Assembly (NCBI GenBank): GCA_029855935.1
Contig: JAGSHN010000026.1
Span: forward strand, 1 to 42,655
Source: Candidatus Thorarchaeota archaeon
GTDB taxonomy: Archaea; Asgardarchaeota; Thorarchaeia; Thorarchaeales; Thorarchaeaceae
Length of the DNA stretch: 42,655 bases
Direction: 5' to 3'
The notes beneath the pieces are model-generated. The model saw only the letters and a program-made list of their open reading frames with translations, was not told the DNA's origin and made no database searches. The translations under genes were made by a program, and so were the position numbers. Below, piece after piece: positions 2,764-42,655 of the stretch. The number at the start of each line of letters is the position of its first letter. The first letter of the stretch is position 1.

Positions 2764-4266
2764 TTGCCATCAAAGTTTCTGAAAGTCCTTTCCCCGCTTG
2801 TACGAGTAATGCCTGAGGTCAAGGCCCCAGAGCGGGAGGTGTCGTTCAGAGAGAAGATAGTCTGGACTCTCGTCGTCCTGATCATCTTCTTGGTCATGTC
2901 ACACATGCCCTTGTATGGCGTTGACAAGAACGTCGGCACCGACTATCTCTGGGCAATGCGTGTGATTCTGGCGAGCACTCGTGGAACGCTGATGGAGCTG
3001 GGAATTGGACCAATTGTCACCGCGGGCCTTGTGATGCAGCTTCTCTCCGGATCGAAGATAATCGACGTGGACTTCAGTGACCCGGATGACCGAGCGCTGT
3101 TCACTGGTGGCCAGAAGGTCCTCGCGATGTTGATGACGGCCTTTCAGGCCATTGCCTACATTATGGGCAATGCCTATGGTCCTCTGACACCTGACAGACA
3201 GGTCTTGGTCTTCCTCCAGCTCTTTGCCGCAGGTGTGGTTGTTATCCTGATGGACGAGCTTGTCCAGAAGGGCTGGGGCCTAGGCTCCGGAGTGTCTCTC
3301 TTCATCATGACCAATGTTGCTGGCCGCGTGATGTGGAACTCCCTCAATATGCTGCAGCTTGAGGACGCTGCACCCGAGGGCTATGCAGGTACAGGTGGCA
3401 CTCGATTGCCGAAGGGTATCATAGCGGCAATGGTCGTCAATCTACTCCGCTGGTTCGGAATTGGTACCGATGCAGGCCCTGCGGTCGATGCAGCGTGGCT
3501 GGTGTTCAGAAACGGCTATGACCCCAGCATATTTGCGCTGGCCGTGACAATGGGCATCTTCTTCTCCGTCCTATGGATGGAGTCTGTGCGTGTTGAGGTT
3601 CCACTACAGTACGCAAAGTATCGGGGTATGCGAGCCCGCTATCCTATCAAGCTCCTCTACACGTCAAACATCCCGGTGATTCTCGCGCAGGCCCTATACG
3701 CCAACATCCTCTTCTTCGGACAGATCATCTACACCAACTGGAATCCCGAGGGCAATAATCCAATCCTCAATCTCATAGGCACCTTCAGTCAGCAAGAGGG
3801 CTCGACAAGAATGATTGCCGAGAGTGGTCTGGCCAGATACATCACTCCGCCACAGGGTCTGATTGTCTTCACTCAGCCTGATGGTGTCTTGCACGTGATA
3901 ATCTATGCCCTACTGATGATAATTCTCTGTTGGGGTTTCAGCGTGATATGGGTCGACATCTCTGGCATCGCGCCGAGAGACGTGGCTCGTCAGCTCCTCG
4001 GTTCGGGCTACATCGTGCCAGGCTTCCGCAGGAGCGAGCGTGTTCTTGAGAGGCTCTTGGACCGCTACATCCCTGTCGTCGCTGGTCTCGGAGGATTTCT
4101 CATCGGCATCCTTGCGGCAGTGGCCGACATCCTCGGTGCCCTGGCAAGCGGCACGGGCATCCTGCTGATGGTGTCCATCATCAAGCAGTACTACGAGACG
4201 ATTGCGAAGGAGCAGCTTGCCGAGATGGGTGGCGAGGGCGTGGCTGGTCTGCTCGGCATACTCTGA
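2764..4266 (+). CDS. secY: Protein translocase subunit SecY (Sec61 alpha)
   Basis: Channel-forming subunit of the SecYEG/Sec61 translocon in the cytoplasmic membrane. The product has 500 residues and about ten hydrophobic helices, as expected for archaeal SecY (roughly 430-500). Recognisable pieces are MPLYGV in the first helix and plug region, LGIGPIVTAGLVMQLL, GWGLGSGVSLFI, VEVPLQYAKYRGMRARYPIKLLYTSNIPVIL in the cytosolic loop, and SGTGILLMVSIIKQYYE at the end. TTG 2764 is chosen because AGGTGA lies eight bases upstream; ATG at 2810 is an alternative. The gene is convergent with the GTPase at 4312. Confidence 0.97.
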   Translation: MPSKFLKVLSPLVRVMPEVKAPEREVSFREKIVWTLVVLIIFLVMSHMPLYGVDKNVGTDYLWAMRVILASTRGTLMELGIGPIVTAGLVMQLLSGSKIIDVDFSDPDDRALFTGGQKVLAMLMTAFQAIAYIMGNAYGPLTPDRQVLVFLQLFAAGVVVILMDELVQKGWGLGSGVSLFIMTNVAGRVMWNSLNMLQLEDAAPEGYAGTGGTRLPKGIIAAMVVNLLRWFGIGTDAGPAVDAAWLVFRNGYDPSIFALAVTMGIFFSVLWMESVRVEVPLQYAKYRGMRARYPIKLLYTSNIPVILAQALYANILFFGQIIYTNWNPEGNNPILNLIGTFSQQEGSTRMIAESGLARYITPPQGLIVFTQPDGVLHVIIYALLMIILCWGFSVIWVDISGIAPRDVARQLLGSGYIVPGFRRSERVLERLLDRYIPVVAGLGGFLIGILAAVADILGALASGTGILLMVSIIKQYYETIAKEQLAEMGGEGVAGLLGIL

Positions 4267-4311
4267 ACTGCGTGCAGATACTCTTGAGGGCCTGTCGCCA
4301 TGAACAGGCTC

Positions 4312-4845
4312 TCACGATTCCTGTCTTGCAGCACAGGCTGCCTCAGACGCTGTGCACAAGAACAGCTCTCCGACGCCATCCCCAGTCCGTGCACTTGTCA
4401 TCACGAATTCTAGGGAGAGCAGCTTGGCGAGCTGGCGTCCTCTCTCCAGTGCCTCTGAATGGTCCCCGTCGATATCTATCTTGTTGGCCACGAGAACGCC
4501 ACGTGGATACTCGCCCCTGGGGATGAAACACATCTGCGAGATCTGTCGGTACATCTCGGCAAGTGGCCTCAGGGTCTCCGGCCTACTCACATCATAGACG
4601 AATATCACCGAGTGAGCGTTTCTACAGTAGTTCATTCTGACATCGTCAAATGTCTGCTGACCCGCCATATCGAAGAGAATGAGTTCGGCATCTCCCTCTG
4701 GTAGCAGTAGTCTCTGGACAGTCACATCCACTCCGATGGTGGCCCTCACATTGTGACTGAACGCATCTTCCGCAAACCTTCTGACTAGAGAGCTCTTTCC
4801 CACTCCTCCGGGACCAACCATGATTATCTTCAGAGTTCGTACCAA
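4312..4845 (-). CDS. Ras-like small GTPase
   Basis: A 177-residue single-domain GTPase with all five G motifs: P-loop GPGGVGKSS (residues 11-19), switch I Thr36 in ATIGVD, G3 DMAGQQ (59-64, with Gln63 at the Ras Gln61 position), NKID (121-124) and SAR (151-153). This arrangement is that of the Ras/Rab/Arf superfamily, which is expanded in Asgard archaea and eukaryotes. The C-terminus (CAARQES) has no CAAX prenylation box and there is no N-terminal Gly for acylation, so no lipid anchor is evident. The frame is open much further upstream, but that part overlaps adkA; TTG 4845 is the likely start. It is divergent from adkA. The regulatory target is unknown. Confidence 0.93.
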   Translation of the reverse strand: MVRTLKIIMVGPGGVGKSSLVRRFAEDAFSHNVRATIGVDVTVQRLLLPEGDAELILFDMAGQQTFDDVRMNYCRNAHSVIFVYDVSRPETLRPLAEMYRQISQMCFIPRGEYPRGVLVANKIDIDGDHSEALERGRQLAKLLSLEFVMTSARTGDGVGELFLCTASEAACAARQES

Positions 4846-7491: not shown

Positions 7492-8525
7492 GCTATGACC
7501 GCACGGGAGGTCTCTGTTTGACGGGTGCGCTTCCTGTCGACCTACCTCGTGAGGTCTTGGTACGTGCGCACGACACGACAGACCCACAGTACGGGTACTC
7601 CTCCCCCAGAGACCTCCCCGTCGAGTATCTCCTTGAAAATGGTGTTGTCTGCCTCGACAAGCCGTCGGGTCCCACCAGTCACGAGGTCGCCACGTGGGTC
7701 CGCAAGATCCTGAATGTCAGCAAGGCCGGTCACTCTGGTACTCTCGATCCGGGCGTCACTGGCGTACTTCCGATAGGCCTTGGAAATGCCACCAAAGTGA
7801 TGCAGGCTCTGCTTCCGGCGGGCAAGGAATACGTCTGCGTGATGGAACTTCACGACCTGGCTGGTGAGGACTCCATTCGCAGTGTGGCTCGCGAGTTCAC
7901 TGGGAAAATATACCAGCGTCCGCCGCTCCGCTCCTCAGTCAAGAGGGTACTCCGTGTCCGCGAGATATACTACATACGCATCCTAGAGATCAAGGGCCGG
8001 TTGGTACTCTTCCGTGTGGGATGTCAGGCGGGGACGTACATCAGAAAGCTATGCTTCGACATCGGCGAGGTCCTCGGCGTGGGGGCTCATATGCGCGAGT
8101 TGCGTCGTACCCGGGTCGGCAAGTTCTCAGAGGATGAGCATCTCTGCACTCTCCACGACCTCAAGGATGCATACGTGTTCTGGAAGGAGGACGCCGACGA
8201 GACAGACATCCGGAAGTACATACTTCCTGTTGAGGCTGCACTGCGTCATCTCCCCGAGATTGTCATACGGGACAGTGCCGTGGACGCAATCTGTCACGGT
8301 GCTGACCTTGCTGCAACGGGCGTTCTCCAACTCACGTCGGACGTGAAGAAGGGTCGTCTTGTGGTCATAAAGACATTGAAGGGCGAGGCCGTTGCGCTGG
8401 CAAGGTCATTGCTCGGGGCCGACCAGATACTCAAGGCCAAGAGCGGCCTTGTTGCCAAGACCGAGCGGGTGCTGATGGAGCGGGGCAGGTATCCACCAAT
8501 GTGGCGTCGCCATGACGAGGAGTGA
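7488..8525 (+). CDS. cbf5: tRNA/rRNA pseudouridine synthase Cbf5 (dyskerin, TruB family)
   Basis: Catalytic subunit of H/ACA ribonucleoproteins; in archaea it also makes pseudouridine 55 in tRNA. The 345 residues include the dyskerin N-terminal part (LLENGVVCLDKPSGPTSHEV), catalytic Asp87 in HSGTLDPGVTGVLPIGLGNA, KEYVCVMELHD, the thumb region, YIRKLCFDIGEVLGVGAHM, and a C-terminal PUA domain from about residue 245 (KYILPVEAALRHLPEIVI). GTG 7488 overlaps the eL14 stop. It is followed directly by the RNase P RNA gene. Confidence 0.97.
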   Translation: MSYDRTGGLCLTGALPVDLPREVLVRAHDTTDPQYGYSSPRDLPVEYLLENGVVCLDKPSGPTSHEVATWVRKILNVSKAGHSGTLDPGVTGVLPIGLGNATKVMQALLPAGKEYVCVMELHDLAGEDSIRSVAREFTGKIYQRPPLRSSVKRVLRVREIYYIRILEIKGRLVLFRVGCQAGTYIRKLCFDIGEVLGVGAHMRELRRTRVGKFSEDEHLCTLHDLKDAYVFWKEDADETDIRKYILPVEAALRHLPEIVIRDSAVDAICHGADLAATGVLQLTSDVKKGRLVVIKTLKGEAVALARSLLGADQILKAKSGLVAKTERVLMERGRYPPMWRRHDEE

Positions 8526-8589: not shown

Positions 8590-8948
8590 GTGGCTCTGGA
8601 GCGAAAGCGCGACTGACGGTGCCGGGAGCTCTGCTTCACGGTGCTGAGGAAGATCCCAACTACGCGCCGACACCAGTCCTGCGCGAGCAGGGAGGCGAGA
8701 GCCTCGCTCTGGGAGCAGAAACGACACGTCCGTGCGGGAGATGACGATGATACAGCGTCGAAACAAGCTGTTGAGGACCCGCACGGGACCGTTGAAACGG
8801 CCCATCACTGGGTAGCAACCCCAAGAATACGCCGATGAGGAGTCGGCCCGAGGCGTAGGGTAGGGGGCTTAGTCCAATGTCGCAAGGTCCGCAGGCGGCA
8901 ACGCGGCGGACGGAACAGAATTGGGGCTACTCTTCGTACCAGAGCCAC
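8590..8948 (+). ncRNA. rnpB: RNase P RNA (archaeal type)
   Basis: Catalytic RNA that removes 5' leaders from pre-tRNA. Closing helix P1 is a perfect 10-bp pairing of 8590-8599 (GTGGCTCTGG) with 8939-8948. The conserved core is present in order: GAGGAAGATCCCAA (CR-I), AGCAGAAACGACAC (CR-II region), GTTGAAACGGCCC, GGGTAGCAACCCCAAGAA (CR-IV region), then GGTAGGGGGCTTAGTCC and ACAGAATTGGGGCTA (CR-V). P4 forms between CCCAA of CR-I and TTGGG of CR-V. The ends are set by P1 and could shift by a few bases. The location between cbf5 and tsr3 puts three RNA-maturation genes together. Protein frames across this stretch are spurious. Confidence 0.93.
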
Positions 8949-13453: not shown

Positions 13454-13573
13454 GCCCGGATAGCCAAGTGGTTACGGCGGCAGCCTGGAGCTGTCAGGAC
13501 TCCTGATTGCCTGATCACCAGGCAGCTGCTCTCCCTCTGGGAGGCATGAGTTCGAATCTCATTCCGGGCGCCA
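13454..13573 (+). tRNA. tRNA-Ser(GGA) with a 33-base intron, CCA encoded
   Basis: The acceptor stem GCCCGGA pairs with TCCGGGC, followed by G73 and an encoded CCA. After removal of 13491-13523 the anticodon stem GCAGC/GCTGC closes the loop CTGGAGA, giving anticodon GGA (13487-13489) with U33. A long variable arm (CTCCC/GGGAG) makes it class II, as for serine. The T-arm is ATGAG-TTCGAAT-CTCAT. The intron follows position 37 and forms a canonical bulge-helix-bulge: central helix CTGG/CCAG with three-base bulges AGC and GCA. EndA at 20491 is the enzyme expected to remove it. Confidence 0.95.
13491..13523 (+). other. tRNA intron (bulge-helix-bulge, 37/38 position)
   Basis: Cuts between G13490 and C13491 and between C13523 and A13524 fall inside the two three-base bulges flanking the 4-bp central helix. 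The intron itself folds further with TCAGG/CCTGA. This is the canonical archaeal splicing substrate. Confidence 0.9.
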
Positions 13574-22473: not shown

Positions 22474-23478
22474 TTGCCGCAGATAGATGATATTGTTGAC
22501 TCCCTCCGCTCCTTTGAGGGAATCACCCGCAAGTATGTGATTCCAGATATCATCAGAAAGATCCGTGAGATCTCGTACAGGGGTGGCCTTCCGCACTCTC
22601 TGGGAGAGGACTCTGCGACAATCGGGACAGAGAGCGACGAGTACGTCCTCCTGACGACCGACTCTGTGGTGGAGGAACTGTGTCGCAGTCATCCCCGAGC
22701 TGCTGGATTCAATGTGGTCTTGGCCAACATTATGGACATCTATGCTGCAGGCGGTGTTCCGACCTCCTTTGCTGTCGCGCTATCCTACTCCTCACCATCG
22801 GTGGGTGAGGGTCTCCTTCAAGGGGTGATCGAGGGATCTCACGCCTTTGAGGTTCCCATCATTCGTGGTCACACCAATCCCTCTGCGAGCTGCACCTACA
22901 TAGTCGGTGCCGCCACTGGAAGAGTCAAAGTCGACGATGTGCTGACGGCCGGGGGCGCCACGAATGACGATCTTCTGGTCTTGATCTTCGACCCACAAGG
23001 AAGACGGGGTCGGTACTATCGTCTGGGCTGGGACACGGTCACCAAACGTTCCAGTGATGACAATATCCGTCGTCTCACAGTAATGACCCGGATTGCCCAG
23101 GAGCATCTCGCTACCGCCGCAAAGGACATCTCAACCGCAGGACTGGTGGGCACGGCCGCAATGATGGTGGAGTACTCAGGGATGGGGGCTCTCGTGGATC
23201 TTGATACACTGGACAGGACCCGTCCCTCAGCAATACCGCTCAAGGACTGGATTCGCATGTTCATCTCGTTGGGTTTCCTACTCTCTGTGAAACAGTGTCA
23301 TCTTGCCCGTGTTGAGGAGCTGACACAAGAGCACGGTCTTCGTGCAGTGGTCATCGGGCACGTGAACGACTCCGGGACACTGGACCTACAGTACGGCGAC
23401 GAGAGAAGGAGACTGTTCGACTTTCGCGATGGCCCCCTACTCACTCCTGCGGGTGAGGACTCGGATGAGCCGTCATAG
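22474..23478 (+). CDS. AIR-synthase-related protein (PurM/SelD/ThiL/HypE superfamily)
   Basis: A 334-residue ATP-dependent enzyme of the PurM-like fold. The N-terminal half has the superfamily signs GEDSATIG, LTTDSVVEELC and NVVLANIMDIYAAGGVPTSFAVAL, which form the acidic metal and ATP site. The sequence IIRGHTNPSASC and a second-domain segment KDISTAGLVGTAAMMVEYSGMGALVD complete the fold. It resembles the AIR-synthase-related subgroups more than true SelD, since the N-terminal Cys/Sec-x2-Lys catalytic motif of SelD is missing. The product is unknown. The nearby Sec cluster makes a selenophosphate-related role worth testing. TTG 22474 is the chosen start. Confidence 0.85.
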   Translation: MPQIDDIVDSLRSFEGITRKYVIPDIIRKIREISYRGGLPHSLGEDSATIGTESDEYVLLTTDSVVEELCRSHPRAAGFNVVLANIMDIYAAGGVPTSFAVALSYSSPSVGEGLLQGVIEGSHAFEVPIIRGHTNPSASCTYIVGAATGRVKVDDVLTAGGATNDDLLVLIFDPQGRRGRYYRLGWDTVTKRSSDDNIRRLTVMTRIAQEHLATAAKDISTAGLVGTAAMMVEYSGMGALVDLDTLDRTRPSAIPLKDWIRMFISLGFLLSVKQCHLARVEELTQEHGLRAVVIGHVNDSGTLDLQYGDERRRLFDFRDGPLLTPAGEDSDEPS

Positions 23479-24166: not shown

Positions 24167-25216
24167 CTATGAGAAGCGAAGTTCAATCGCCTTGTTCGGA
24201 CAGTGGCTCATGCACTCCAAGCAGAGGATGCAGTCGGCACTGTACATGTGGTCGTAGGGAAACTTCCTGATCTGAATGTTCATCGGGCAGACAACCTCGC
24301 ACACATTGCACGTGTCAGGTGTGCATCTCGCGGGGTTTCTGCCGATGCCTATGAGCGCGTCCCTTGAGAATAGACCGTAGAACCATCCTGCAGGACACAG
24401 CCATCTACAGAACCAGCGTGGCACCCAGAAGGAGACAACGAGGACGAACGTGACGAAGATGACCTGAAGCCAGACCACTGTGCCCCAGACCGAGAGATAC
24501 CACAGCGTATCGAGTCCCGTGGGCCAGACCTGGTTGGCCATGACCACAAATATGATGTATGCCGGGTTGAATGGGTCAAACGCCGCGTTGGCAAACATCC
24601 CGAGGACTGCCTCTAGGTCCTCCGCTGTGCCGGTCAACCTGCTCAGCCCCATCCACACTGCAAGGCCGACGACAATGACAAAGACGTACGCCTTGACTCG
24701 CCTGAGCTCTCTCTCTGTGTTGGGCGCAGGCCGCACCTTTGACCTGTTCGGCAAGGTGGCAAAGTCTTGGAGCGTACCAATGGGACAGATCCAGCCGCAG
24801 GCCACACGACCGAGGACAGTGAGGATGAGAATCATTGCTCCGAGGGTGAAGAACGGGAATATGCCACTGGAGAGCTCTCTCTGCATAGTGTCAAAGGACC
24901 CTGCAATCATCCCGAAGGGGGCCTCCAGCGGGGCGATGATTGGCAACGTCGGGATGGCGTTCCTCACACTCTCCCAGAAAGCGGTTATCTGTTCGTTGCC
25001 CCACCATGCTGCAAAGATGTAGCCATTGATTCCCAGCAGGAACAGAATCTGCACGACACGCCTGAGCATTCGGATGTTGAACACAGCACCCACGACCCGT
25101 CGTGCCAGTCCGGGTCGTTTCTCCATCGCCCTCTCTGCCCTCTTGGTCTCAGCTTCAGAGGATTTGTCCCTGTTCTCTTCCTTCTCCGTGCCAGGCGTCT
25201 CGGCATCCTTTGCCAT
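24167..25216 (-). CDS. NapH-like membrane ferredoxin (4Fe-4S polyferredoxin)
   Basis: An integral membrane electron-transfer protein of 349 residues. A charged cytosolic N-terminus of about 45 residues precedes a set of about five hydrophobic helices. CGWICPIGTLQD and CRWLCPAGWFYG are the paired C-x3-CP motifs of NapH/CcoG/RdxA proteins. The C-terminus holds two 4Fe-4S motifs, CNVCEVVCP and CILCLECMSHCP, facing the cytosol. It probably passes electrons between quinol or ferredoxin and an unknown partner. A TATA-like TTTTTAATC lies near 25268-25276. Confidence 0.9.
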   Translation of the reverse strand: MAKDAETPGTEKEENRDKSSEAETKRAERAMEKRPGLARRVVGAVFNIRMLRRVVQILFLLGINGYIFAAWWGNEQITAFWESVRNAIPTLPIIAPLEAPFGMIAGSFDTMQRELSSGIFPFFTLGAMILILTVLGRVACGWICPIGTLQDFATLPNRSKVRPAPNTERELRRVKAYVFVIVVGLAVWMGLSRLTGTAEDLEAVLGMFANAAFDPFNPAYIIFVVMANQVWPTGLDTLWYLSVWGTVVWLQVIFVTFVLVVSFWVPRWFCRWLCPAGWFYGLFSRDALIGIGRNPARCTPDTCNVCEVVCPMNIQIRKFPYDHMYSADCILCLECMSHCPNKAIELRFS

Positions 25217-25797: not shown

Positions 25798-27189
25798 ATG
25801 ACTGAGGAGCCGGTCACGGTACATGTGGGCCTCACTGGTCACATAGACCATGGCAAGACAGCTCTCGCTGCAGCGCTCAGTGAGGGTGTCTTCACAGCTG
25901 GTCTTGACAGACATCCACAGGCCCGGCAGCGAGGGATGACAATTGATCTCGGATTCACAATGTTCCATCTCGGCGACTATGTTGTGACCCTAGTCGATGC
26001 TCCGGGACACGCTGATCTCATCCGGAGTGTTGTCGCGGGGGCCAGCATAATCGATATGGCAATTCTCACGGTCGCCGCGGACGAGGGGCCCAAGGTACAG
26101 ACTGGTGAGCATCTTGTCGTTCTCGACTCGATGGGCATATCCTCTCTTCTCGTTGCAATCACCAAGATTGACCTTGTTGGTCGAGAGCAGGTCGAGAGGG
26201 TCGAGCGGCAGATGCGGTCGATACTCAGCGATCTGTCCTTTGACGATGTCCGCTTTGTGAGGGTGTCAGCGAAGACGCGTGAGGGCCTCGATGAACTGAG
26301 GCAGACGCTGCTGGACATGCTCCGCCCACGACCTCGAGACCGCGACGGTCCGTTCCTGATGCCAATAGACCACGCCTTTCCCGTCCGTGGTCACGGCACG
26401 GTCGTGACGGGTACCATCCTTCGAGGGTGTATCTCCTCAGACAATTTGGTAGAGCTAGCGCCACAGGGCCTGCGGGCGCGTGTCCGTACGATTCAGACCT
26501 TTGGGCAAAGCCGGAAGGCTGCTTGTGCCGGTGACCGGGTTGGCATCAACGTTCCCGACCTCGACCACAGAGACATCGTCCGTGGCTACTACCTCTGTCA
26601 GCCTCACTCGCTGGCGAATAGCCCGCAGTTCCTCGTGAGACTGCAGAGGACAAGACTCTACAGCGGGCGGGTGACCTCAGGTATGAGGCTGTCTGCCCAC
26701 GTTGGAATGCGCGCGGTGACCTGCGAGGTCATCCCACTTGTCGAGATTGAGGGGCGTCTTGTATTGTGTGAGGAGGCGGAAGACGAGGAGTTCCTTGCTG
26801 TGTTACGATCATCGCGCCCCATTGCAATAGAACCCGGAATGCGCGTCCTACTCCTGCGGACAGACCTTCCACCCACCACCATGCGTATTGTGGCATCGGG
26901 GGCGGTCCGGTGGACTACATCACCGACCACGGTATACAGACGTACGGTTCGGCGCGGGACTGTGCACCGTCTGCGTGAGGCCGACGTACTCGTCGTCGGA
27001 CTGGCCACCCGGCGTGAGCGTGCACTGCAGCTTCGTGGTCTGCGTGTGAGGGCTGCTGGTGGGGCCGTGGGGACGATTGGCGAGCCCTTTGGGACAAAGG
27101 GGGTTGTCAGCATATCATTCGACTCCCCAGTCACCGAGGGTGAGGAGGTCTATCTTGATGTGTTTCGTGAGGTGAGACTTGGTGGATGA
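25798..27189 (+). CDS. selB: Selenocysteine-specific elongation factor SelB (EFSec)
   Basis: GTPase that delivers Sec-tRNA-Sec to ribosomes at recoded UGA codons. It has 463 residues, the size of archaeal SelB. Domain I shows GHIDHGKT (14-21), QRGMTID (44-50), DAPGH (67-71), TKID (122-125) and SAKT around residue 157. Domains II and III follow (FPVRGHGTVVTGTILRG, then GDRVGINV), and a short domain IV runs to the end. The RQRGMTIDLGF motif instead of RGITI, and the extra C-terminal domain, separate it from EF-Tu/aEF1A and aIF2-gamma. It overlaps sepS by 11 bases and shares a palindromic TATA with the upstream divergent gene. Confidence 0.93.
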   Translation: MTEEPVTVHVGLTGHIDHGKTALAAALSEGVFTAGLDRHPQARQRGMTIDLGFTMFHLGDYVVTLVDAPGHADLIRSVVAGASIIDMAILTVAADEGPKVQTGEHLVVLDSMGISSLLVAITKIDLVGREQVERVERQMRSILSDLSFDDVRFVRVSAKTREGLDELRQTLLDMLRPRPRDRDGPFLMPIDHAFPVRGHGTVVTGTILRGCISSDNLVELAPQGLRARVRTIQTFGQSRKAACAGDRVGINVPDLDHRDIVRGYYLCQPHSLANSPQFLVRLQRTRLYSGRVTSGMRLSAHVGMRAVTCEVIPLVEIEGRLVLCEEAEDEEFLAVLRSSRPIAIEPGMRVLLLRTDLPPTTMRIVASGAVRWTTSPTTVYRRTVRRGTVHRLREADVLVVGLATRRERALQLRGLRVRAAGGAVGTIGEPFGTKGVVSISFDSPVTEGEEVYLDVFREVRLGG

Positions 27190-28504
27190 ACTGGAACGAC
27201 GGCTCTTGGAGACCATACCCACTAACATGGCGGCGAGAGGGCTCACCACTCTAGATGCCCTCATACGACCGATTCGCGACCTACTGAGTCGGCAGCAGTT
27301 TCCAGAGGAGTCACTGTCTGACAGACAGATCGAATGGCTCCTGAAACTGCTCTCCTCAATGGACTCTGACAAGGACCCTGCTGCCGCACGGGTGGGAGAG
27401 AGAGAGGGTCGCGTGGCATCTCCTCTGGTGGAGCGCCTCTCCTTCGCGTTCAACCATGGCGTGGGTCGCAGCGGTCATGTGACGGCACCACAGCCAAAGG
27501 CCGCCGGCGCGTCCCTGATGCAGCAGCTCTGCAACAATGTAGCTGTTGATGCAATTCGTCGTCTTGGCCTTCCCAACATCCGGCACGGCCTAGTACTCCC
27601 GGTATCGACGGGGATGTGCATCGCTCTCGTATTTGCGGCTCTGCGCCGGGAGCTTGGTGTGAGACGAGTCTTCTACCCACGAATTGACCACAAGTCCCCG
27701 CGTCGCGGACTGGCACTCGCTGGTGTCGAGGTGATTGAGGTCCCGACTATATTGACTGGCGATGCCGTCCGTCCGAACCTTGACTGGCTGAGTACCGTGC
27801 TGCCCGAGAGAAGAGACGAGGCTGCTGTTCTCGCCACGACCACGTTCTTTTCACCACGAGAGCCCGACCCTGTAAAGGAGATTGCCCGGCTCTGCAGCGA
27901 CCTTGACACGCCTCTCGTGATCAACAATGCCTATGGTGTGCAGTCTCCCCGCATCATGGCCATGATACGCTCTGCGGTTGATGCAGGTCGGGTCGATGCT
28001 GTGATACAGAGCAGTGACAAGAACTTCTTGGCCCCCGTTGGTGGGTCCATTCTCGTGTCAGCATCTAGAGACATAGTGGAGTGGACGGCTGCGACATACG
28101 CTGGTCGTGCCACCGCCGCACCAGTTGTCCAGACGCTTGCGGCCCTTCTGGCTCTTGGCAGGTCTCGATATGAGCAACTACGTTCAGAACAGGCCGAGAA
28201 CAGACAACTCCTCGAAACGATGCTGGGCGAGGTGGCCGATGCTGTCGGGCAGCGATTGCTCTCGGTGTTCAATCCAGTTTCTTGCGCGATGACCCTCGAT
28301 GGTCTTGACGCCCGGGTCATTGGAGCGAGGCTGTACAGTGCGCGAGTGACGGGGCCACGTGCGGTGGAGCAGGGAGATCAGGGTTCGTGCATCGATGGAT
28401 ACCCCCACAGCTATGTAGTTATGAACGCTGCAATCGGATCCTCACGTGAGGATGTCGAGACGGCAGTCGCCAAACTTCATAAGGAGCTCTCTCAAATGAT
28501 GTAA
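27179..28504 (+). CDS. spcS: O-phosphoseryl-tRNA(Sec) selenium transferase (SepSecS)
   Basis: PLP enzyme that converts phosphoseryl-tRNA-Sec to selenocysteyl-tRNA-Sec with selenophosphate. The 441 residues match the family: GVGRSGHVTAPQPKAAGASL (about 97-116, substrate phosphate loop), RHGLVLPVSTGMCIALVF, DHKSPRRGLALAGVEVIEVP, TTFFSPREPDPV, NNAYGVQSP, and SSDKNFLAPVGGSIL with PLP-binding Lys281. The TTG at 27179 overlaps the selB end, so the two are translationally coupled; GTG 27182 is also possible. The pathway partners tRNA-Sec and PSTK lie just downstream. Confidence 0.95.
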   Translation: MVDELERRLLETIPTNMAARGLTTLDALIRPIRDLLSRQQFPEESLSDRQIEWLLKLLSSMDSDKDPAAARVGEREGRVASPLVERLSFAFNHGVGRSGHVTAPQPKAAGASLMQQLCNNVAVDAIRRLGLPNIRHGLVLPVSTGMCIALVFAALRRELGVRRVFYPRIDHKSPRRGLALAGVEVIEVPTILTGDAVRPNLDWLSTVLPERRDEAAVLATTTFFSPREPDPVKEIARLCSDLDTPLVINNAYGVQSPRIMAMIRSAVDAGRVDAVIQSSDKNFLAPVGGSILVSASRDIVEWTAATYAGRATAAPVVQTLAALLALGRSRYEQLRSEQAENRQLLETMLGEVADAVGQRLLSVFNPVSCAMTLDGLDARVIGARLYSARVTGPRAVEQGDQGSCIDGYPHSYVVMNAAIGSSREDVETAVAKLHKELSQMM

Positions 28505-28549: not shown

Positions 28550-29185
28550 ATGACAACAGTCTCTCGAACTCTCCACTACGACGAACAGAGCCCATCGACA
28601 GTGTTCAGGATAGTCTGGTACGCGGCCGCACTGAGGCCTGGAGTCATACTGGTCGACCACAGCGAGGCTGAGAGCAAGACCCTCGACGCATCTGCGGAGT
28701 TCCAGCTGGACCTCGATGGCAAGCGGGTCAGCCTACAGGCGCACATCCGTGGCGATGATCGCTCTGTAGAATTGACAGTCTCCGGTGATGTCGACGGCTC
28801 AGCACTCGAGTCATATGTGGACGGCCTGACTCAGGAGATAGAGTCGCTGATCAAGAAGTTCGCTGCTATGGATGAGGCCACCCAACAACGTGTTGACCGC
28901 GCACTCTTAGCGAAGGCATGTTGGGACCGTGTGATTGCTGGCGTCCTCAAGAAGAGCCCTAGCAGCGACATATATTTCCAGCTCGCGCACGGCCGCGAGA
29001 TGATAATCAAGGCGACAGAGGGCGAGGATGTTCCTCCAATGGCGCTCACGACCAGTTCGTGGATCTCAAACATAGAGTCATTGCCACAGGACGAGCCGCT
29101 TCCCGCCTCCGTGGCGACCGATCTCGCAAAGAAGTGTGTCGAGTGGAAGAAGGAGACTCTGGAGATCTTGCGTCGGTATCTATGA
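28550..29185 (+). CDS. Unknown protein inside the Sec cluster
   Basis: A 211-residue soluble protein. The N-terminal half looks beta-rich (FQLDLDGKRVSLQAHI, then RSVELTVSGDVDG). A long helix, SYVDGLTQEIESLIKKFAAM, is followed by a helical C-terminal half ending VEWKKETLEILRRYL. No catalytic motif, metal site or membrane helix is apparent, and I do not recognise the family. ATG 28550 lies 45 bases after spcS with no obvious promoter between, so co-transcription with selB-spcS is likely. tRNA-Sec begins 34 bases after the stop. A role in Sec metabolism or RNA binding is inference from position alone. Confidence 0.78.
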   Translation: MTTVSRTLHYDEQSPSTVFRIVWYAAALRPGVILVDHSEAESKTLDASAEFQLDLDGKRVSLQAHIRGDDRSVELTVSGDVDGSALESYVDGLTQEIESLIKKFAAMDEATQQRVDRALLAKACWDRVIAGVLKKSPSSDIYFQLAHGREMIIKATEGEDVPPMALTTSSWISNIESLPQDEPLPASVATDLAKKCVEWKKETLEILRRYL

Positions 29186-29219: not shown

Positions 29220-29310
29220 GGCCCCCAGCAGTGTCGGTGGTCCGGCGCCGCGGGCTTCAAACCCGTGATCGCGCAAGCGATGAGAGTTCGATTCTCTCTG
29301 GGGGCCGCCA
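29220..29310 (+). tRNA. selC: tRNA-Sec(UCA), CCA encoded
   Basis: All special features of selenocysteine tRNA are present. A 9-bp acceptor stem pairs GGCCCCCAG with CTGGGGGCC. The D-stem has 7 bp (GTGTCGG/CCGGCGC) with a four-base loop TGGT, as in archaeal tRNA-Sec. A 6-bp anticodon stem closes the loop CTTCAAA, giving anticodon TCA (29257-29259). The variable arm is ATCGC-GCAA-GCGAT, and the T-stem has 4 bp (AGAG/CTCT, loop TTCGATT). This is the 9/4 form of archaea and eukaryotes, followed by G73 and CCA. The extended D-stem is what PSTK recognises. Confidence 0.97.
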
Positions 29311-29320
29311 CTCACGCCAT

Positions 29321-30103
29321 TCAAGACCTCAATATCCCATCCTCGTACAGCCTGCGCCGTAGAATATCGAGTGTTTCGGCCTCTGACAGCCCCTGTCGCA
29401 GTGCTGTCTTCAACACCTCTCTCCGCAGCTTGGACAGTCGTTGAGGGTCGCTCCTGGCTGGGTGGTCTCGAATGAAGGCAGCCACCAGACGCCTTGTGGC
29501 GACATCGAGCGAGGTGGCCCGCTCGTCTCTTGATGACGATGCCATCATTCTGCCCCTTCCTCTCTCCTCGGTTTCGATGAGTCTTCTGAGTCCACTGACC
29601 ACTAGTCTCGCAGCCTCGTCCACACCCATCACAGAGAGGTCCGCTGCAGCAATTGGCCGATCCCAGGCATAGCGGAGGCCCGGCGGGTCGAGTCTGTCAG
29701 CAATCCTCCGAAGCACCTCCTCCGGAACCTGGCGTCTTCTCTGTCTGTTCCAGCGTAGCGCGACCGCGAGTGGTGTCGTGACGTACACGACGCCAAACGC
29801 GACACTCATCCTCTCAGCAACGACCAATAGCTCGTGACGCATGCTGGCGTAGTAGTTCGTGTCATCGTGAATGACTGACTGTCCCTGATCCAGTGTCCTC
29901 TCGGCTCGTCTCAACGCCTTCTGCCGCACTGCATGTTCTCGCTCTGGTGTGAAGTTCCTGTAGTACTCGTCATCACGCAGAGCATCGGTGCTGATCAGAG
30001 TCGCGGGTCGAAGGTCGTCTGTCAGTTGAGCCAAGACAGCCTCTGCAAGGGTGGTCTTGCCCGATGCTGGAATGCCGCACAGCGCGAGGAGAAACTGTGG
30101 CAT
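29321..30103 (-). CDS. pstK: L-seryl-tRNA(Sec) kinase (PSTK)
   Basis: Phosphorylates Ser-tRNA-Sec to Sep-tRNA-Sec, the substrate of SepSecS. With ATG 30103 it has 260 residues. The N-terminal P-loop kinase shows LCGIPASGKTTLA (P-loop at 10-18), ISTDALRDDEYYRNFTPERE, VIHDDTNYYASMRHEL and VVYVTTPLAVALRWNRQRR. A helical C-terminal tRNA-binding domain ends RRRLYEDGILRS. GTG 30115 is an alternative start. Its 3' end lies 10 bases from tRNA-Sec, on the opposite strand, and tfb is upstream on the same strand. Related small P-loop kinases exist, but the context makes PSTK firm. Confidence 0.93.
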   Translation of the reverse strand: MPQFLLALCGIPASGKTTLAEAVLAQLTDDLRPATLISTDALRDDEYYRNFTPEREHAVRQKALRRAERTLDQGQSVIHDDTNYYASMRHELLVVAERMSVAFGVVYVTTPLAVALRWNRQRRRQVPEEVLRRIADRLDPPGLRYAWDRPIAAADLSVMGVDEAARLVVSGLRRLIETEERGRGRMMASSSRDERATSLDVATRRLVAAFIRDHPARSDPQRLSKLRREVLKTALRQGLSEAETLDILRRRLYEDGILRS

Positions 30104-30209
30104 CAGAGGGTCCACCGAGTCTATTGTCCCCTGCTGTACAAAAGGAGTTTGTGGCCCGCCTCAAGAACGCGGTCCGCCCGGGGCGTTGCGCCACAAGACA
30201 TACAACGGT

Positions 30210-37602: not shown

Positions 37603-40600
37603 ATGCCACGATCCGGCTTTCGCCCAAGTATGTTTGTTATTGACATCACGGTCTTCTTTCTGATGCAGCTGACTCCGATGGCCGCATCGCAGATTGTTGC
37701 GTCAAACAACGACGCCTATCATCCGGACACTAGTCTTGTGCTTCTCCCCGATCGCTCGGTCGTGCCACAGCCTCCAGGGACTCTCACGCTCACGCCTGTG
37801 AGCGGGCCATTGCTATCACCCGTGAGGGTCATGCAGCCGTCCAATGTGGTCGACTTCGAGAAGCGCAAGGCTGAGATATTCGCCTCCGTGGATCAGAACG
37901 GGAACAAGATTCACGACGAGCTGGACAGCATTGTCAGGGAGCGCGAGGCTGCGGGAGCCGCTGACGAGCCCGTCCGTGTCATAGTTGCTGTAGAGGATGG
38001 CGAGCTCGACCGTGCCACAGGCGAATTCAAGTCGCTTGGTGGCGTCCTGTACCAGAGGTACGAGGGTGCATTCTATGGGTTTGCAGGAGACATACCCTAC
38101 AGCGCCGTGACAGACGTATCCTCACTCTGGGAGGTCGAACTTGTGGAACGCGATCAGCCAATGATGAGGATGTCTGATCTCAGTACTCTGCTCACTGGAG
38201 TCCGGAACTATGTCTGGGACACGCTTGGATACACCGGCGACCCCAACAGTTCAATTGCTGTTCTCGACACGGGAATTGATGATACTCATCCCATGCTCTC
38301 ACCGTACGGCGACCTTGATTTTGCCAATGCCAAGATAGTGGGATGGCACGATGCCACGGGTGATGGTTCGACCTCTCCTGAGGACATGAACAGTCACGGG
38401 AGTCACTGTGCAGGTATTGCTGCTGGTAAGGAATACGCCTCAGAGACTGGTGACGGCCGTATTCAGACGACGTGGGGAATCAAGTATCCGTACTCCTCGC
38501 TCAGCGGAGGAGCGTCAGGCTATTTTGTCTATTACATTGACGTGAAGTCGCCTGGCCTTGTGGAGGTCAAGACCCTCTGGAGCGGCACCTCCGGAGTGAT
38601 GAGCAATGATGTCATCCTCAGAACACCTAACGGGACCTACGCCGACCACGTCGTCAGCTCCGCATCGCAGAGGGATCTGAGCGCGCTGGCTAATGCCACG
38701 GATATTGGGTTGTGGTCCGTGTGGATTCACGTGTCATTTCCTTCTGGCCTGAATCAGGAGTTCCGTGCCACTGGCGTCAATACCTATCCCTACGACTCGC
38801 CAACCGACGGTCATCTGCGATTCAGTGGAGTCGCCCCTGACACAAAACTGGTCAGTGTGAAGGTCTTTGACAACACTGGTTCCGGCTCGTCGACGGACTT
38901 GGTCAACGGCCTCGACTGGGTGTATAACAATGCGGAAAAATATCACATCACTGTGGCATCGATGAGCCTTGGATTCTCGGATACCGTTGCCTCAGTCGAC
39001 TCGGCCACCGCGAAGCTTGTCTCGAAGGGAATAGTCACCTGTGTCAGTGCCGGCAACGACGGGCAGGGCGCCAACAACATCAATACGCCCGGGCATGTCG
39101 ATGAGGTGATCTGTGTTGGTGCCACTGGCGATCACAATCAGGTGACATCCTACTCATCTCAAGGTCCTGGTCATCTCAACACCCAGAAGCCTGACCTCGT
39201 CGCTCCGGGTGGCGTGTCCTCACAGGGCGCGATTCTCTCTGTCGACTCCAATGACCAGGAGGCGGACGGTGCGTTCTCTGAGCAGCAGCCGAATGATATG
39301 GCAATAATGCAGGGAACGTCAATGTCATGTCCGTATGTCGCTGGCCTTGCAGCACTCCTTGTTGATGCGATGGGCGGGTACAGTAGCTGGACCTATGATA
39401 GCACCGCGAATCCGTTCACCGTGAAACAGATACTGATGATGACGAGCTACGAGGTATGGTCACACGACCGCGGAGGGAAGGATGTCGTTGAGGGCTATGG
39501 TCGTGTCTGTGCTGATGCTGCTCTCGAGGCGTACCTCTACGAGCATGTCATCGGCACCGCCGAGACTGGGACAATCGTGACTGGCGATGCCGGCCGCAAG
39601 GCTTGGGCCCGACATATGTCTCTCACGGCGGGGACCATCTACACGTTCGATCTTGATGTACCTGCGATGGCCGACTTTGACCTCTTCCTATATGACGGGG
39701 CCTACGACACGTATGGGGAGCCCGTCCTACTTCGTCGATCGATCAACTTCGCCCCTGGTGCCTCAGAGCACATAACATTCACCCCCTCGACCAGTGGCAC
39801 GTATTACATCGTAGTGAAGTACGTGACTGGAGAGGGCGGTACATTTACTCTCTCCAGTCGGTCTGGCACGTCGTTCCCATCGGTGAGCTTCAACAACCCC
39901 GCAGAGAATGATGTCCTTACTGGCTCTCTGACCGTTCAGGTGTCAGCCAGTGGAACTGGCCTCTCGTCTGTCGAGCTCAGGTTCTGGAACGACACGTGGA
40001 TTGACATAACGAGTGGCTACAACTCTGGCACGGGCTACTACGAGTACACTATGAATGTGTCCTGCATCGAGACGGGAAATGTGACGTTCGTCGCACGTGC
40101 AACGTCGCCGAGTGGAACAAGCTATGCCTCTGTCAACGTGTACGTGTCTACGTCGAGTCCGCAGATTCTCCTAGTCGATGATGACAATGGTGCCTCCTAT
40201 GAGAGCTACTACAAGGCCGCATTGGAGGATCTGGGGCTCAAGGAGAACGTCGCATATGATGTGTGGACAGTGTCCTCGGATGGATCTCCCTCTGCATCAA
40301 AGCTTCAATCCTACGTGATAGTCATATGGTTCACGTCTGACGACTATCAGACAACACTCTCCGACACTGATAGGGCCAACCTGCAGACCTTCCTCAATGG
40401 AGGCGGCAAGCTGTTCATCTCGGGTCAGGACATAGGATACGACTCGTCAAACAGTAACTGGGAATCATGGATTCAGACCTACCTCCACGGCGACTATGCC
40501 AACAATGACGACACGAACGGCAACGCGGTCAATGGTGTGGCGGGTGATGCTGTGTTTGATGGGGTCAGCTACTCTCTTGGCGATGGAGATGGCGGTGGCA

Positions 40601-42655
40601 ACAATGGCTATCCCGATGAGATCTCGCCCATCAACGGTGGCATTCAGTGCCTCACTTATGATGTCACCGGGACACCCGGTGCCGCTGTGAGATATGCTGG
40701 CACCTACAGAGTGGTCTATTTCGGTTTCAACTTCGAGGCGATATCCTATGCCGCCGACCGCACTGATGCGATGGACCGGGTGCTGGACTTCTTGGGTCTC
40801 GATTTGGCCCCATCCCTGCAGGTCTCATCTCCCTCACGATTCTCTTGGGTGTACTCGCCTGTGACTGTGAGCTGGACTGCAACCGATGACGTGTCGGTCT
40901 CGTATGTCGAGGTCTACCTTGACGGCCAACTAACGGCACACGTCACCAACAGTTCAGTGCAGGTGACTGTCAGCGAGGGCAATCACACACTCCGTGTGGT
41001 GGCCGTTGACTCCATTGGCCAGATAACGGTGCGTCAAGTCATCATCTATGTTGACAACACCGACCCCACAATCACCTTTCTGTCACCAGCCGCGGGTGCT
41101 GTGGTGAAGAGCGGCACCACCGTCGATGTCGACGTATCGGACGAACATCTTGATACTGTCTACTACAGATGGGACTCGAGAGTCTGGCAGGTCTTCACGT
41201 CACCATATGACACCGTGGTGCCCTCTGGTGATGGCCCTCACACGCTGTACGTGAATGCAACGGACCTTGCAGGCAATCTTGCAGCATCCTCCCGGCAGTT
41301 TGTCTGTGACGACACGGCGCCCACCATCACTCTAGTCAGTCCAGCTGCAGGCAGTGTTCAGCAGAGCGGGGTCACCGTTGACCTCGACGTGTCAGACGCG
41401 CACCTCAGTACTGTGCGCTATCACTGGGACTCTGATGCTTGGGCGGACCTTCCAGCACCCTTCGACACCACAATCCCGAGCGGCGATGGCGACCATACAC
41501 TCTATGTCAACGCGACTGATGAGGCTGGCAACTATGCGCTAGTGTCCTATACCTTCACGACCGACGACACTCAGCCCACCGTCACTCTGATCTCACCCGC
41601 GAACAACACAGTTCAGTCTGGCGGCACCACAGTGGACCTCTCTGTCTCGGACCTGCATCTCAGTACCGTCTACTATCGCTGGGACTCGGGATCCTGGGCT
41701 GTGCTCCCCGCCCCATACGACACTCAGATTCCCGAAACCGAAGGGATGCACATTCTGTACGTCAATGCCACAGATGAGGCTGGCAACGTCCGGCGCGAGA
41801 CGTACGTCTGGACAGTACCGTCAACAGGCAGCGCTCCGTCGGTGTGGTTGGTCTCCCCTCCTGACGAGAGTGTGAACCAGAGCGGTACGACGATTGACCT
41901 GAACATCACAGATGCTGATGGCGATCTCGGCACCGTCTACTACTGGTGGGACATTGGGTCGCCCGCAGTGCTGCCGTCTCCATATGACACAAGTCTTCCA
42001 TCCGGCGATGGTCCCCACACGCTCTATGTAAACGCTACAGACAGCGCTGGCCACTACACGTACGTCAGCTTCTCGTTCATCACAGACGACACACCACCAT
42101 CAATCACGCTCGACTCTCCACCCGACGGGTCTGTGATACGGTCGGGCACGACCGTGTACTTCAACGTGACCGACTTGAACTCCATAGTGAGCATACTGTA
42201 CGCCTGGGACGCCGCCGGGAATCTATCGCTTCCTGGTCCTTACAACAAGACCACCTACAATGTGAGCACCTCGGGTCTGTCGGAGGGTCTACATACGCTC
42301 ACGCTCTACGCCACAGACGAGGCTGGCAACGAGGCCTCGGCACAGTATACATACACGGTGGATGACACACCGCCCTCAATCACGCTCGTTTCACCGCCTG
42401 ACGGTTCCGAGATTCAATCTGGGACGACAATCGACCTTGATGTGACTGATCCGCACACTGTGCAGCAGGTACTGTACAATTGGGATGGAGGCTCTAACGC
42501 TTCGCTCTCAAGTCCGTACGACGTGTCAACAACTGGTCTGTCTGAAGGGTCTCATACTCTGAACGTCTATGCAAGCGACGGGCCCGGGAACTGGGCATTT
42601 GCATCGTACTCCTTTGTAGTCGACGATACTCCCCCAAGTGTCGTACTGAACTCGC
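37603..42655 (+). CDS. Secreted subtilisin-family (S8) protease with Ig-like repeats, 3' end missing
   Basis: The frame is open from ATG 37603 to the contig end (1684 codons) and is incomplete. A signal peptide (hydrophobic stretch MFVIDITVFFLMQLTPMAAS) and a propeptide of about 150 residues come first. The S8 triad is intact: Asp222 in VLDTGID, His265 in NSHGSHCAGIAAG, Ser573 in GTSMSCPYVAGLAAL, with oxyanion Asn485 in SAGND. An insert of about 120 residues lies between the His motif and GVAPDTKLVSVKVF. A pre-peptidase C-terminal domain (about 645-760), an Ig-like domain, a domain starting QILLVDDDNGASYESYYKA and a series of Ig-like repeats follow. Probably cell-surface or extracellular. An in-frame stop at 37543 fixes the start region. 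Confidence 0.93.
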   Translation, partial: MPRSGFRPSMFVIDITVFFLMQLTPMAASQIVASNNDAYHPDTSLVLLPDRSVVPQPPGTLTLTPVSGPLLSPVRVMQPSNVVDFEKRKAEIFASVDQNGNKIHDELDSIVREREAAGAADEPVRVIVAVEDGELDRATGEFKSLGGVLYQRYEGAFYGFAGDIPYSAVTDVSSLWEVELVERDQPMMRMSDLSTLLTGVRNYVWDTLGYTGDPNSSIAVLDTGIDDTHPMLSPYGDLDFANAKIVGWHDATGDGSTSPEDMNSHGSHCAGIAAGKEYASETGDGRIQTTWGIKYPYSSLSGGASGYFVYYIDVKSPGLVEVKTLWSGTSGVMSNDVILRTPNGTYADHVVSSASQRDLSALANATDIGLWSVWIHVSFPSGLNQEFRATGVNTYPYDSPTDGHLRFSGVAPDTKLVSVKVFDNTGSGSSTDLVNGLDWVYNNAEKYHITVASMSLGFSDTVASVDSATAKLVSKGIVTCVSAGNDGQGANNINTPGHVDEVICVGATGDHNQVTSYSSQGPGHLNTQKPDLVAPGGVSSQGAILSVDSNDQEADGAFSEQQPNDMAIMQGTSMSCPYVAGLAALLVDAMGGYSSWTYDSTANPFTVKQILMMTSYEVWSHDRGGKDVVEGYGRVCADAALEAYLYEHVIGTAETGTIVTGDAGRKAWARHMSLTAGTIYTFDLDVPAMADFDLFLYDGAYDTYGEPVLLRRSINFAPGASEHITFTPSTSGTYYIVVKYVTGEGGTFTLSSRSGTSFPSVSFNNPAENDVLTGSLTVQVSASGTGLSSVELRFWNDTWIDITSGYNSGTGYYEYTMNVSCIETGNVTFVARATSPSGTSYASVNVYVSTSSPQILLVDDDNGASYESYYKAALEDLGLKENVAYDVWTVSSDGSPSASKLQSYVIVIWFTSDDYQTTLSDTDRANLQTFLNGGGKLFISGQDIGYDSSNSNWESWIQTYLHGDYANNDDTNGNAVNGVAGDAVFDGVSYSLGDGDGGGNNGYPDEISPINGGIQCLTYDVTGTPGAAVRYAGTYRVVYFGFNFEAISYAADRTDAMDRVLDFLGLDLAPSLQVSSPSRFSWVYSPVTVSWTATDDVSVSYVEVYLDGQLTAHVTNSSVQVTVSEGNHTLRVVAVDSIGQITVRQVIIYVDNTDPTITFLSPAAGAVVKSGTTVDVDVSDEHLDTVYYRWDSRVWQVFTSPYDTVVPSGDGPHTLYVNATDLAGNLAASSRQFVCDDTAPTITLVSPAAGSVQQSGVTVDLDVSDAHLSTVRYHWDSDAWADLPAPFDTTIPSGDGDHTLYVNATDEAGNYALVSYTFTTDDTQPTVTLISPANNTVQSGGTTVDLSVSDLHLSTVYYRWDSGSWAVLPAPYDTQIPETEGMHILYVNATDEAGNVRRETYVWTVPSTGSAPSVWLVSPPDESVNQSGTTIDLNITDADGDLGTVYYWWDIGSPAVLPSPYDTSLPSGDGPHTLYVNATDSAGHYTYVSFSFITDDTPPSITLDSPPDGSVIRSGTTVYFNVTDLNSIVSILYAWDAAGNLSLPGPYNKTTYNVSTSGLSEGLHTLTLYATDEAGNEASAQYTYTVDDTPPSITLVSPPDGSEIQSGTTIDLDVTDPHTVQQVLYNWDGGSNASLSSPYDVSTTGLSEGSHTLNVYASDGPGNWAFASYSFVVDDTPPSVVLNS
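41053..42655 (+). repeat. Tandem Ig-like repeats in the protease
   Basis: Six full repeats of about 255-276 bases start near 41053, 41308, 41563, 41824, 42085 and 42361, and a seventh begins at 42622. Each opens with DD(T)-x-P-x-I-T-L-x-SP and has a central Y-x-W-D motif and the phrase HTLYVNATDEAGN. The array is cut by the contig end, so the total number is unknown. Confidence 0.9.

Follow-up and report, generated by a model that had tools for sequence, protein, structure and literature searches.

The window, by which we mean the whole analysed stretch of 42,655 nucleotides, belongs to the draft genome of a Candidatus Thorarchaeota archaeon (2.97 Mb in 32 contigs, 97.3% complete, contamination 2.81). 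It carries a conserved selenocysteine (Sec) gene cluster in the order SelB-SepSecS-SelX-tRNA-Sec-PSTK. The first gene, for the Sec-specific elongation factor SelB/aEFSec (25798..27189, plus strand), scored 283.3 bits against TIGR00475 (cut-off 242.25) and matched the archaeal-type SelB 4ac9 in the PDB (E 1.9e-87). It is followed on the same strand by the gene for SepSecS, the O-phosphoseryl-tRNA(Sec) selenium transferase (27179..28504), which scored 437.2 bits against TIGR03531 (cut-off 224.85) and matched PDB 2z67 (E 5.1e-99). By profile and PDB matches alike, these two genes are of the kind found in the archaeal/eukaryotic Sec pathway. Next on the plus strand come SelX (28550..29185), a member of NF045535 (Sel_Asgard, 'putative selenocysteine system protein') with 191.5 bits against a cut-off of 132, and the tRNA-Sec gene (29220..29310; anticodon UCA, 9/4 form, encoded CCA). 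The cluster is closed by a gene on the minus strand, convergent with the tRNA, for the L-seryl-tRNA(Sec) kinase PSTK (29321..30115). Its score of 140.2 bits against TIGR03574 is under the NCBIfam cut-off of 290.5; the only PDB matches under 0.001 were L-seryl-tRNA(Sec) kinases (best 3adb, E 1.1e-22), and these matches together with synteny identify it as the kinase of the same pathway.

Scanning named genomes with SelX returned 36 loci, mostly from Candidatus Thorarchaeota, the closest being that of isolate B65_G9 (57% identity). The 36th locus, a 46-residue fragment, was left out of the synteny counts. In the remaining 35 Thorarchaeial loci the gene order was kept, with SelB present in 30, SepSecS in 32, PSTK in 28 and tRNA-Sec in 27; several of the absences fall at contig ends, and the truncated SelB, SepSecS and PSTK of one locus (L104) were scored as present. 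The distance from the end of SelX to the start of tRNA-Sec was no more than 70 nt in 23/27 loci. Two further genes are conserved neighbours. One (22474..23478, plus strand), found at 24/35 SelX loci, is AIR-synthase-like and resembles methanogenesis marker 2 rather than SelD proper (TIGR03267, 228.2 bits, below the cut-off of 365); the other (24167..25216, minus strand) encodes a NapH-like ferredoxin membrane protein.

Elsewhere in the window, the archaeal RNase P RNA was found at 8597-8941 on the plus strand (RF00373, 176.6 bits). A second tRNA gene at 13454-13570 (plus strand; RF00005, 47.3 bits) was missed by ARAGORN at default settings; it has an intron, a long variable arm and an encoded CCA, and by hand it reads as tRNA-Ser (GGA). 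A very large open frame of 1,684 aa (37603-42654, plus strand) runs off the contig and, judged by eye, resembles subtilisin in its N-terminal part and contains repeats of an Ig-like unit. Positions 1-19, at the contig start, read AGATGTGTATAAGAGACAG, which we take to be a Nextera transposase end, i.e. adapter left in the assembly; the open reading frame 3-365 begins inside it (MCIRDR).

A sequence-only reading of this stretch had called a tRNA-Sec with full archaeal hallmarks and proposed covariance-model scoring as the check. Both the identity and the hallmarks held. The gene (tRNA-SeC, anticodon tca) was the sole ARAGORN tRNA call in the window, and RF01852, the Rfam covariance model, matched 29220-29306 with 64.4 bits (E 5.4e-11), well clear of its gathering score of 47. 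This was the one match above the cut-off in the whole genome; the five weaker ones were tRNA-Gly, -Ser, -His, -Lys and -Ser. Pairing by hand reproduced every part of the described cloverleaf, with 31/31 standard pairs: an acceptor stem of 9 bp, a 7-bp D-stem with a UGGU loop, a 6-bp anticodon stem whose loop (CUUCAAA) carries the UCA anticodon, a 5-bp variable arm capped by GCAA and a 4-bp T-stem, followed by G73. To judge the structure by covariation we used 22 Asgard genes (20 distinct rows, drawn from the best-scoring loci). In this alignment 89.8% of the cells were paired, against at most 53.8% for slid structures; both-sided changes occurred at 24 of the 31 pairs, and the covariation score was equalled by none of 500 shuffles.

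The gene thus shares with the archaeal tRNA-Sec of RF01852 the 13-bp acceptor domain in its 9/4 form, the 7-bp D-stem with a 4-nt loop, the UCA anticodon, G73 and the long variable arm; a passage of the review PMC9499178 lists the 9/4 form, the 7-bp D-stem with its 4-nt loop and G73 as archaeal hallmarks. The review also states that CCA is not gene-encoded in archaea, a trait that is common in archaeal tRNA-Sec and does not define it. In contrast, CCA is encoded here (29308-29310) and in 20/20 Asgard tRNA-Sec loci checked. This is not peculiar to tRNA-Sec, because another tRNA of the window encodes CCA as well.

Few selenoprotein genes, two in number, were found in this genome. The gene for SelD (G000:C21) has an in-frame UGA in the motif HGUSCK, at residue 20 of the frame as read, and HGU was present in 24/24 UGA-bearing SelD loci examined from the same family, a count that excludes six of the 30 fetched loci (L066-L071), in which long frames lack the UGA. 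The second, a putative VhuU, is a 50-codon gene on contig C24, downstream of a hydrogenase large subunit without the C-terminal metal-binding motif; its frame reads MSEEIPEGLLNLIEMVVRCYDCULSCGAHLVVVDEEGRELARKELVTGGG, with Sec in DCULSC. Some match to the VhuU family at E <=0.001 was obtained in 37/47 genomes, weak large-subunit matches counted, and all 30 VhuU loci fetched combined an in-frame UGA with a UGA stop. SelX stop codons, in contrast, were mixed (TAG 21, TGA 7 and TAA 7 in 35 named loci). VhuU of methanogens is likewise a very short Sec polypeptide encoded after a hydrogenase large subunit; the Thorarchaeial gene differs in its SECIS, which is of the Asgard eSECIS-like kind and not of the methanogen type. 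A second hydrogenase large subunit without the C-terminal metal-binding motif lies on G000:C28 (L150, minus 3024-4352). The 500 nt downstream of this gene showed no VhuU, and the subunit may share that of C24.

In the parts compared, other candidate selenoproteins of the genome were negative. Sec replaces Cys at NIREHC/NIREWC of HdrA elsewhere, and three HdrA-type frames carry Cys at this position here, with no in-frame UGA in the HdrA-type proteins. Six FlpD, eight NiFe-hydrogenase and four AhpC/TSA (peroxiredoxin-like) stretches had no stop within the matched part. A frame scan for further UGA-split ORFs gave many candidates; among the matches listed, those inspected looked like neighbouring genes or background.

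Both selenoprotein genes carry a SECIS of eSECIS-like type, i.e. an [AG]UGA/GA core with an A-rich apical region over a paired stem, and this was seen in 24 SelD and 30 VhuU loci. AUGA was invariant in VhuU, while in SelD UGA was invariant and one of the 24 rows had CUGA. The UGA stop codon falls within this core in SelD and VhuU alike. The 5' arm of the lower stem in SelD (24 loci) consists of the last codons (GAGACCG) and its 3' arm lies downstream; a UCC/GGA step leads to the core, which is topped by an upper stem and the apical region AAACC, and a further hairpin sits between core and lower stem. The VhuU layout (30 loci) is the same. Since the element straddles the stop and its lower stem is coding, RNA stem and protein sequence would constrain each other. 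Covariation was found in both sets, with both-sided changes at 15/22 pairs in SelD (94.9% of cells paired; slid structures reached 43.8% at most) and at 12/27 pairs in VhuU (94.3% against at most 48.4%). These figures are biased towards the structures, which were derived from the very alignments used to test them, and for VhuU some of the 500 shuffles (10 and 28) attained two of the five summary measures. Covariance models built from the two sets, each with this genome's own sequence in its training set, recovered the genome's SelD (E 1.5e-23) and VhuU (E 7.7e-20) elements. No third element appeared at E up to 10 among the 150 of about 1,000 first-look candidates that were scored per model.

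The extra short hairpin 3' of the core often has a GCRA-type loop (SelD L072-L095, VhuU L166-L195). Together with the lower stem formed by the last codons it makes the SelD and VhuU SECIS a three-way junction. That the stop UGA and the SECIS core overlap was rejected as a novelty, as Huang et al. 2024 (PMC11227280) already state it for Lokiarchaeia, in a passage that describes a stop UGA overlapping AUGA and cites Mariotti et al. 2016.

Taken together, the tRNA very probably is a functional tRNA-Sec of the archaeal/eukaryotic type, serving insertion of Sec at in-frame UGA codons of mRNAs with an eSECIS-like element. Judged by sequence, the tRNA, SelB, SepSecS and PSTK are all present, as are SelD and VhuU with UGA and a covarying SECIS. 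The earlier statement that the tRNA is direct evidence for UGA being read as Sec goes further than a tRNA by itself allows: a Thorarchaeial relative without Sec machinery (G208) retains a decayed tRNA-Sec of 37.6 bits, with 5/31 pairs broken and 10 differences from a Sec-using relative (L112). The gene of the window could on this precedent be left over from a Sec system since lost, with UGA serving only as a stop. We regard this as very improbable, given 31/31 pairs and 64.4 bits here, intact SelB, SepSecS and PSTK adjoining the gene, and, elsewhere in the genome, SelD and VhuU genes that combine an in-frame UGA with a SECIS. The conclusion that UGA is read as Sec stands, because SelB, SepSecS and PSTK flank the tRNA and SelD and VhuU carry an in-frame UGA with a SECIS. 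Even less credible is a genome-wide reassignment of UGA, in favour of which there is the existence of a tRNA with anticodon UCA. The 13-bp acceptor domain of this tRNA is that of a tRNA-Sec, and SECIS elements are expected with local recoding only. Moreover, UGA is the stop of 29/40 genes tallied in the window; with ordinary UGA stops so common, recoding must be local. The warning that gene callers would truncate selenoproteins was right and, with two such genes found, narrow in reach.

In the pathway that we infer, SerRS would place serine on tRNA-Sec, PSTK would phosphorylate the tRNA-bound serine, and SepSecS would swap the phosphate for selenium from selenophosphate, which SelD, itself a selenoprotein, would supply. 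SelB would then carry the Sec-tRNA to the in-frame UGA of an mRNA with the eSECIS-like element round its stop codon. Expression, charging and actual Sec insertion are likewise what we infer from the gene content.

For comparison across Asgard archaea, the tRNA proved a poor marker of the Sec trait. Of 130 genomes with SepSecS, 62 had no tRNA-Sec above the Rfam cut-off, and several showed a match of 40-45 bits adjoining SepSecS (e.g. G107, G155 and G157 of family f20). The cut-off of 47 under-calls Asgard tRNA-Sec, and SepSecS was therefore used as the marker instead. In families f14 (G076-G079) and f27 (G175-G178) SepSecS was present and no tRNA-Sec exceeded the cut-off even with laxer filters; SelB adjoins SepSecS in the three f14 genomes inspected, raising the question whether the tRNA-Sec of these families is divergent, split or intron-bearing. 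Genus g6 (G191, G192) has Sec-containing SelD and VhuU, and neither SelX nor a tRNA-Sec over the cut-off. We take this absence as an assembly gap, because SepSecS runs off the contig end in G192.

The discussion of Huang et al. 2024 (PMC11227280) names a hypothetical protein, restricted to Asgard archaea and encoded near secS, efSec and pstk, which we take to be the NF045535/SelX family. The same authors leave room for unknown genes that substitute for SBP2, and on one reading SelX would be the Asgard counterpart of that eukaryotic protein, binding SECIS or SelB. In most Thorarchaeial loci SelX indeed has SepSecS on one side and tRNA-Sec on the other, and its NCBIfam name is that of a putative Sec-system protein. 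Among 227 Asgard genomes, 111 had both SelX and SepSecS over the cut-off, 15 SelX alone, 19 SepSecS alone and 82 neither, so that exactly one of the two occurred in 34; Fisher's test gives p 2e-27, for genomes that are not independent. However, SelX is not confined to genomes with Sec machinery, as 15/126 SelX genomes lack SepSecS over the cut-off. Three of these have partial SepSecS matches (G148, G158, G225) and G149 was set aside, leaving eleven clearer ones: all eight genomes of f12, G174, and the Thorarchaeia G198 and G208. Conversely, four f27 genomes have SepSecS and no SelX match. Very long branches separate families in the SelX tree and the joins between them are unresolved, so f12/f26 orthology is not established by the tree. 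Synteny favours orthology in f12, where SelX is over the cut-off in 8/8 genomes without SepSecS and a NapH-like gene adjoins it as well, and in G174, where PhoU-, EndA- and UppP-like genes lie near as in the window, judged by eye.

Three Thorarchaeial genomes, G225, G208 and G198 (84%, 90% and 91% complete, respectively), look like stages of Sec loss round an intact SelX. Compared with L102 (91-96% DNA identity), the G225 locus (L104) misses ~2 kb across SelB and SepSecS; what remains of SelB is a match of 99 residues, and of SepSecS a frame of 122 residues. On the other side a shorter sequence takes the place of tRNA-Sec and part of PSTK; SelX, in between, is whole. The deletions lie either side of it within L104 7893-10401, and a UGA-bearing SelD is still in the genome. 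This broken locus reflects either a very recent loss or a chimeric assembly. In G208 (L114, L207), SelB, SepSecS and PSTK are gone from the locus, and the genome has no SepSecS or SelD over the cut-off and no UGA-bearing VhuU; the decayed tRNA-Sec mentioned above, on which ARAGORN is silent (37.6 bits with RF01852), lies between the intact SelX and TFB (L207, G208:C387, minus 7824-7910). In G198 (L109, L208) the same three genes are gone and there is no tRNA between SelX and TFB. The dN/dS of SelX is near 0.10 for G208 against L112 or L103, and 0.07 between L112 and L103, with synonymous sites near saturation.

SelX thus outlasts the Sec machinery and is apparently under constraint. Since it is intact in Thorarchaeia with a broken or lost Sec locus, SelX is probably no dedicated component of the Sec pathway; its linkage to the Sec genes is tight in Sec users, and it may have a double role. 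A stand-in for SBP2 would have to persist in G198 and G208 without SepSecS, Sec-containing SelD or VhuU, or an intact tRNA-Sec, and through the G225 deletions, which makes this explanation rather unlikely despite the co-occurrence. Efforts to find what replaces SBP2 should accordingly not be built on this protein, the one Asgard-specific candidate proposed for the pathway, which persists without it.

The predicted structure offers a different lead. SelX is a free-standing protein of 211 aa that, in an AlphaFold2 model from 36 Thorarchaeial sequences (pLDDT 92.3, pTM 0.89), folds into a small alpha/beta domain (beta-alpha-beta4-alpha, residues 1-105) and a four-helix bundle (109-210) like the VPS28 C-terminal domain. 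With VIA-align the bundle matched 2j9w, this domain of VPS28, at Z 12.2 (rmsd 2.5, 99 aligned), a comparison in which helical bundles may share arrangement only. Residues 1-105 matched the plant protein 1vjh at Z 11.6 (rmsd 2.3, 101 aligned) and, ranking below it, the adaptin appendage 2mj7 at Z 9.4 (rmsd 2.9, 99 aligned). A Pfam scan of SelX itself gave no match. A firmer connection comes from profile alignment, in which SelX aligns with the C-terminal ~199 residues of four proteins of ~788 aa from families f19/f20 (96.2% probability, E 2e-9, 175 columns); the three of these scanned match NF045535 at E 4e-13 to 7e-11, all below the cut-off. The SelX-like end was assigned to Pfam VPS28 above the cut-off in 3/3 proteins scanned, and the remaining parts to DDRGK, E3_UFM1_ligase (UFL1) and PCI, likewise above their cut-offs. 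DDRGK, UFL1, PCI and VPS28 are thus found in one chain at L162:1195-3558, L163:3000-5363 and L164:1198-3549. On these alignments we consider SelX and the C-terminal module of these UFL1/DDRGK- and VPS28-matching Asgard proteins to be homologues. There is about an even chance that SelX is a free-standing trafficking-type adaptor module, appendage-like plus VPS28-C-like, with a Sec-independent job, perhaps alongside other old neighbours, the NapH-like protein among them, and that in Sec users it may also adapt SelB or the ribosome.

Among known prokaryotes, Asgard archaea are the closest relatives of eukaryotes, and these observations bear on how eukaryotes came to SBP2-dependent Sec insertion. 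Asgard proteins that join a VPS28-C domain to an adaptin appendage are described in an ESCRT survey (PMC10936438), and the main text of that survey does not contain the word 'selenocysteine'. SelX resembles those proteins in its homology to the C-terminal module of Lokiarchaeal-type VPS28-matching proteins and differs from them in being free-standing, 211 aa long and located in a Sec cluster. NF045535 is unmentioned in the open-licence PMC papers searched, and the connection made here for SelX may have been published elsewhere; its homology to the C-terminal module of the UFL1/DDRGK-VPS28 proteins and its persistence without Sec genes are apparently new.

The tRNA-Sec itself adds one more genome to a trait already known for the group, and the SelD and VhuU of this genome can now be annotated correctly. 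Sec use has been reported for 77.4% of Thorarchaeia genomes (Huang et al. 2024, PMC11227280), and a passage of Sun et al. 2021 (PMC9723677) notes tRNA-Sec in Thorarchaeia. The Asgard selenoproteins in print are SelD, FrhA/VhuU, HdrA, FrhD and Prx-like proteins, with eSECIS-like elements (PMC11227280). Compared with the Asgard Sec systems of these two papers, the present system has the same pathway, a SelD that is itself a selenoprotein and the same eSECIS-like core; what it adds is a SelX that persists where the Sec genes are gone and, for SelD and VhuU of Thorarchaeia, the three-way-junction layout of the SECIS.
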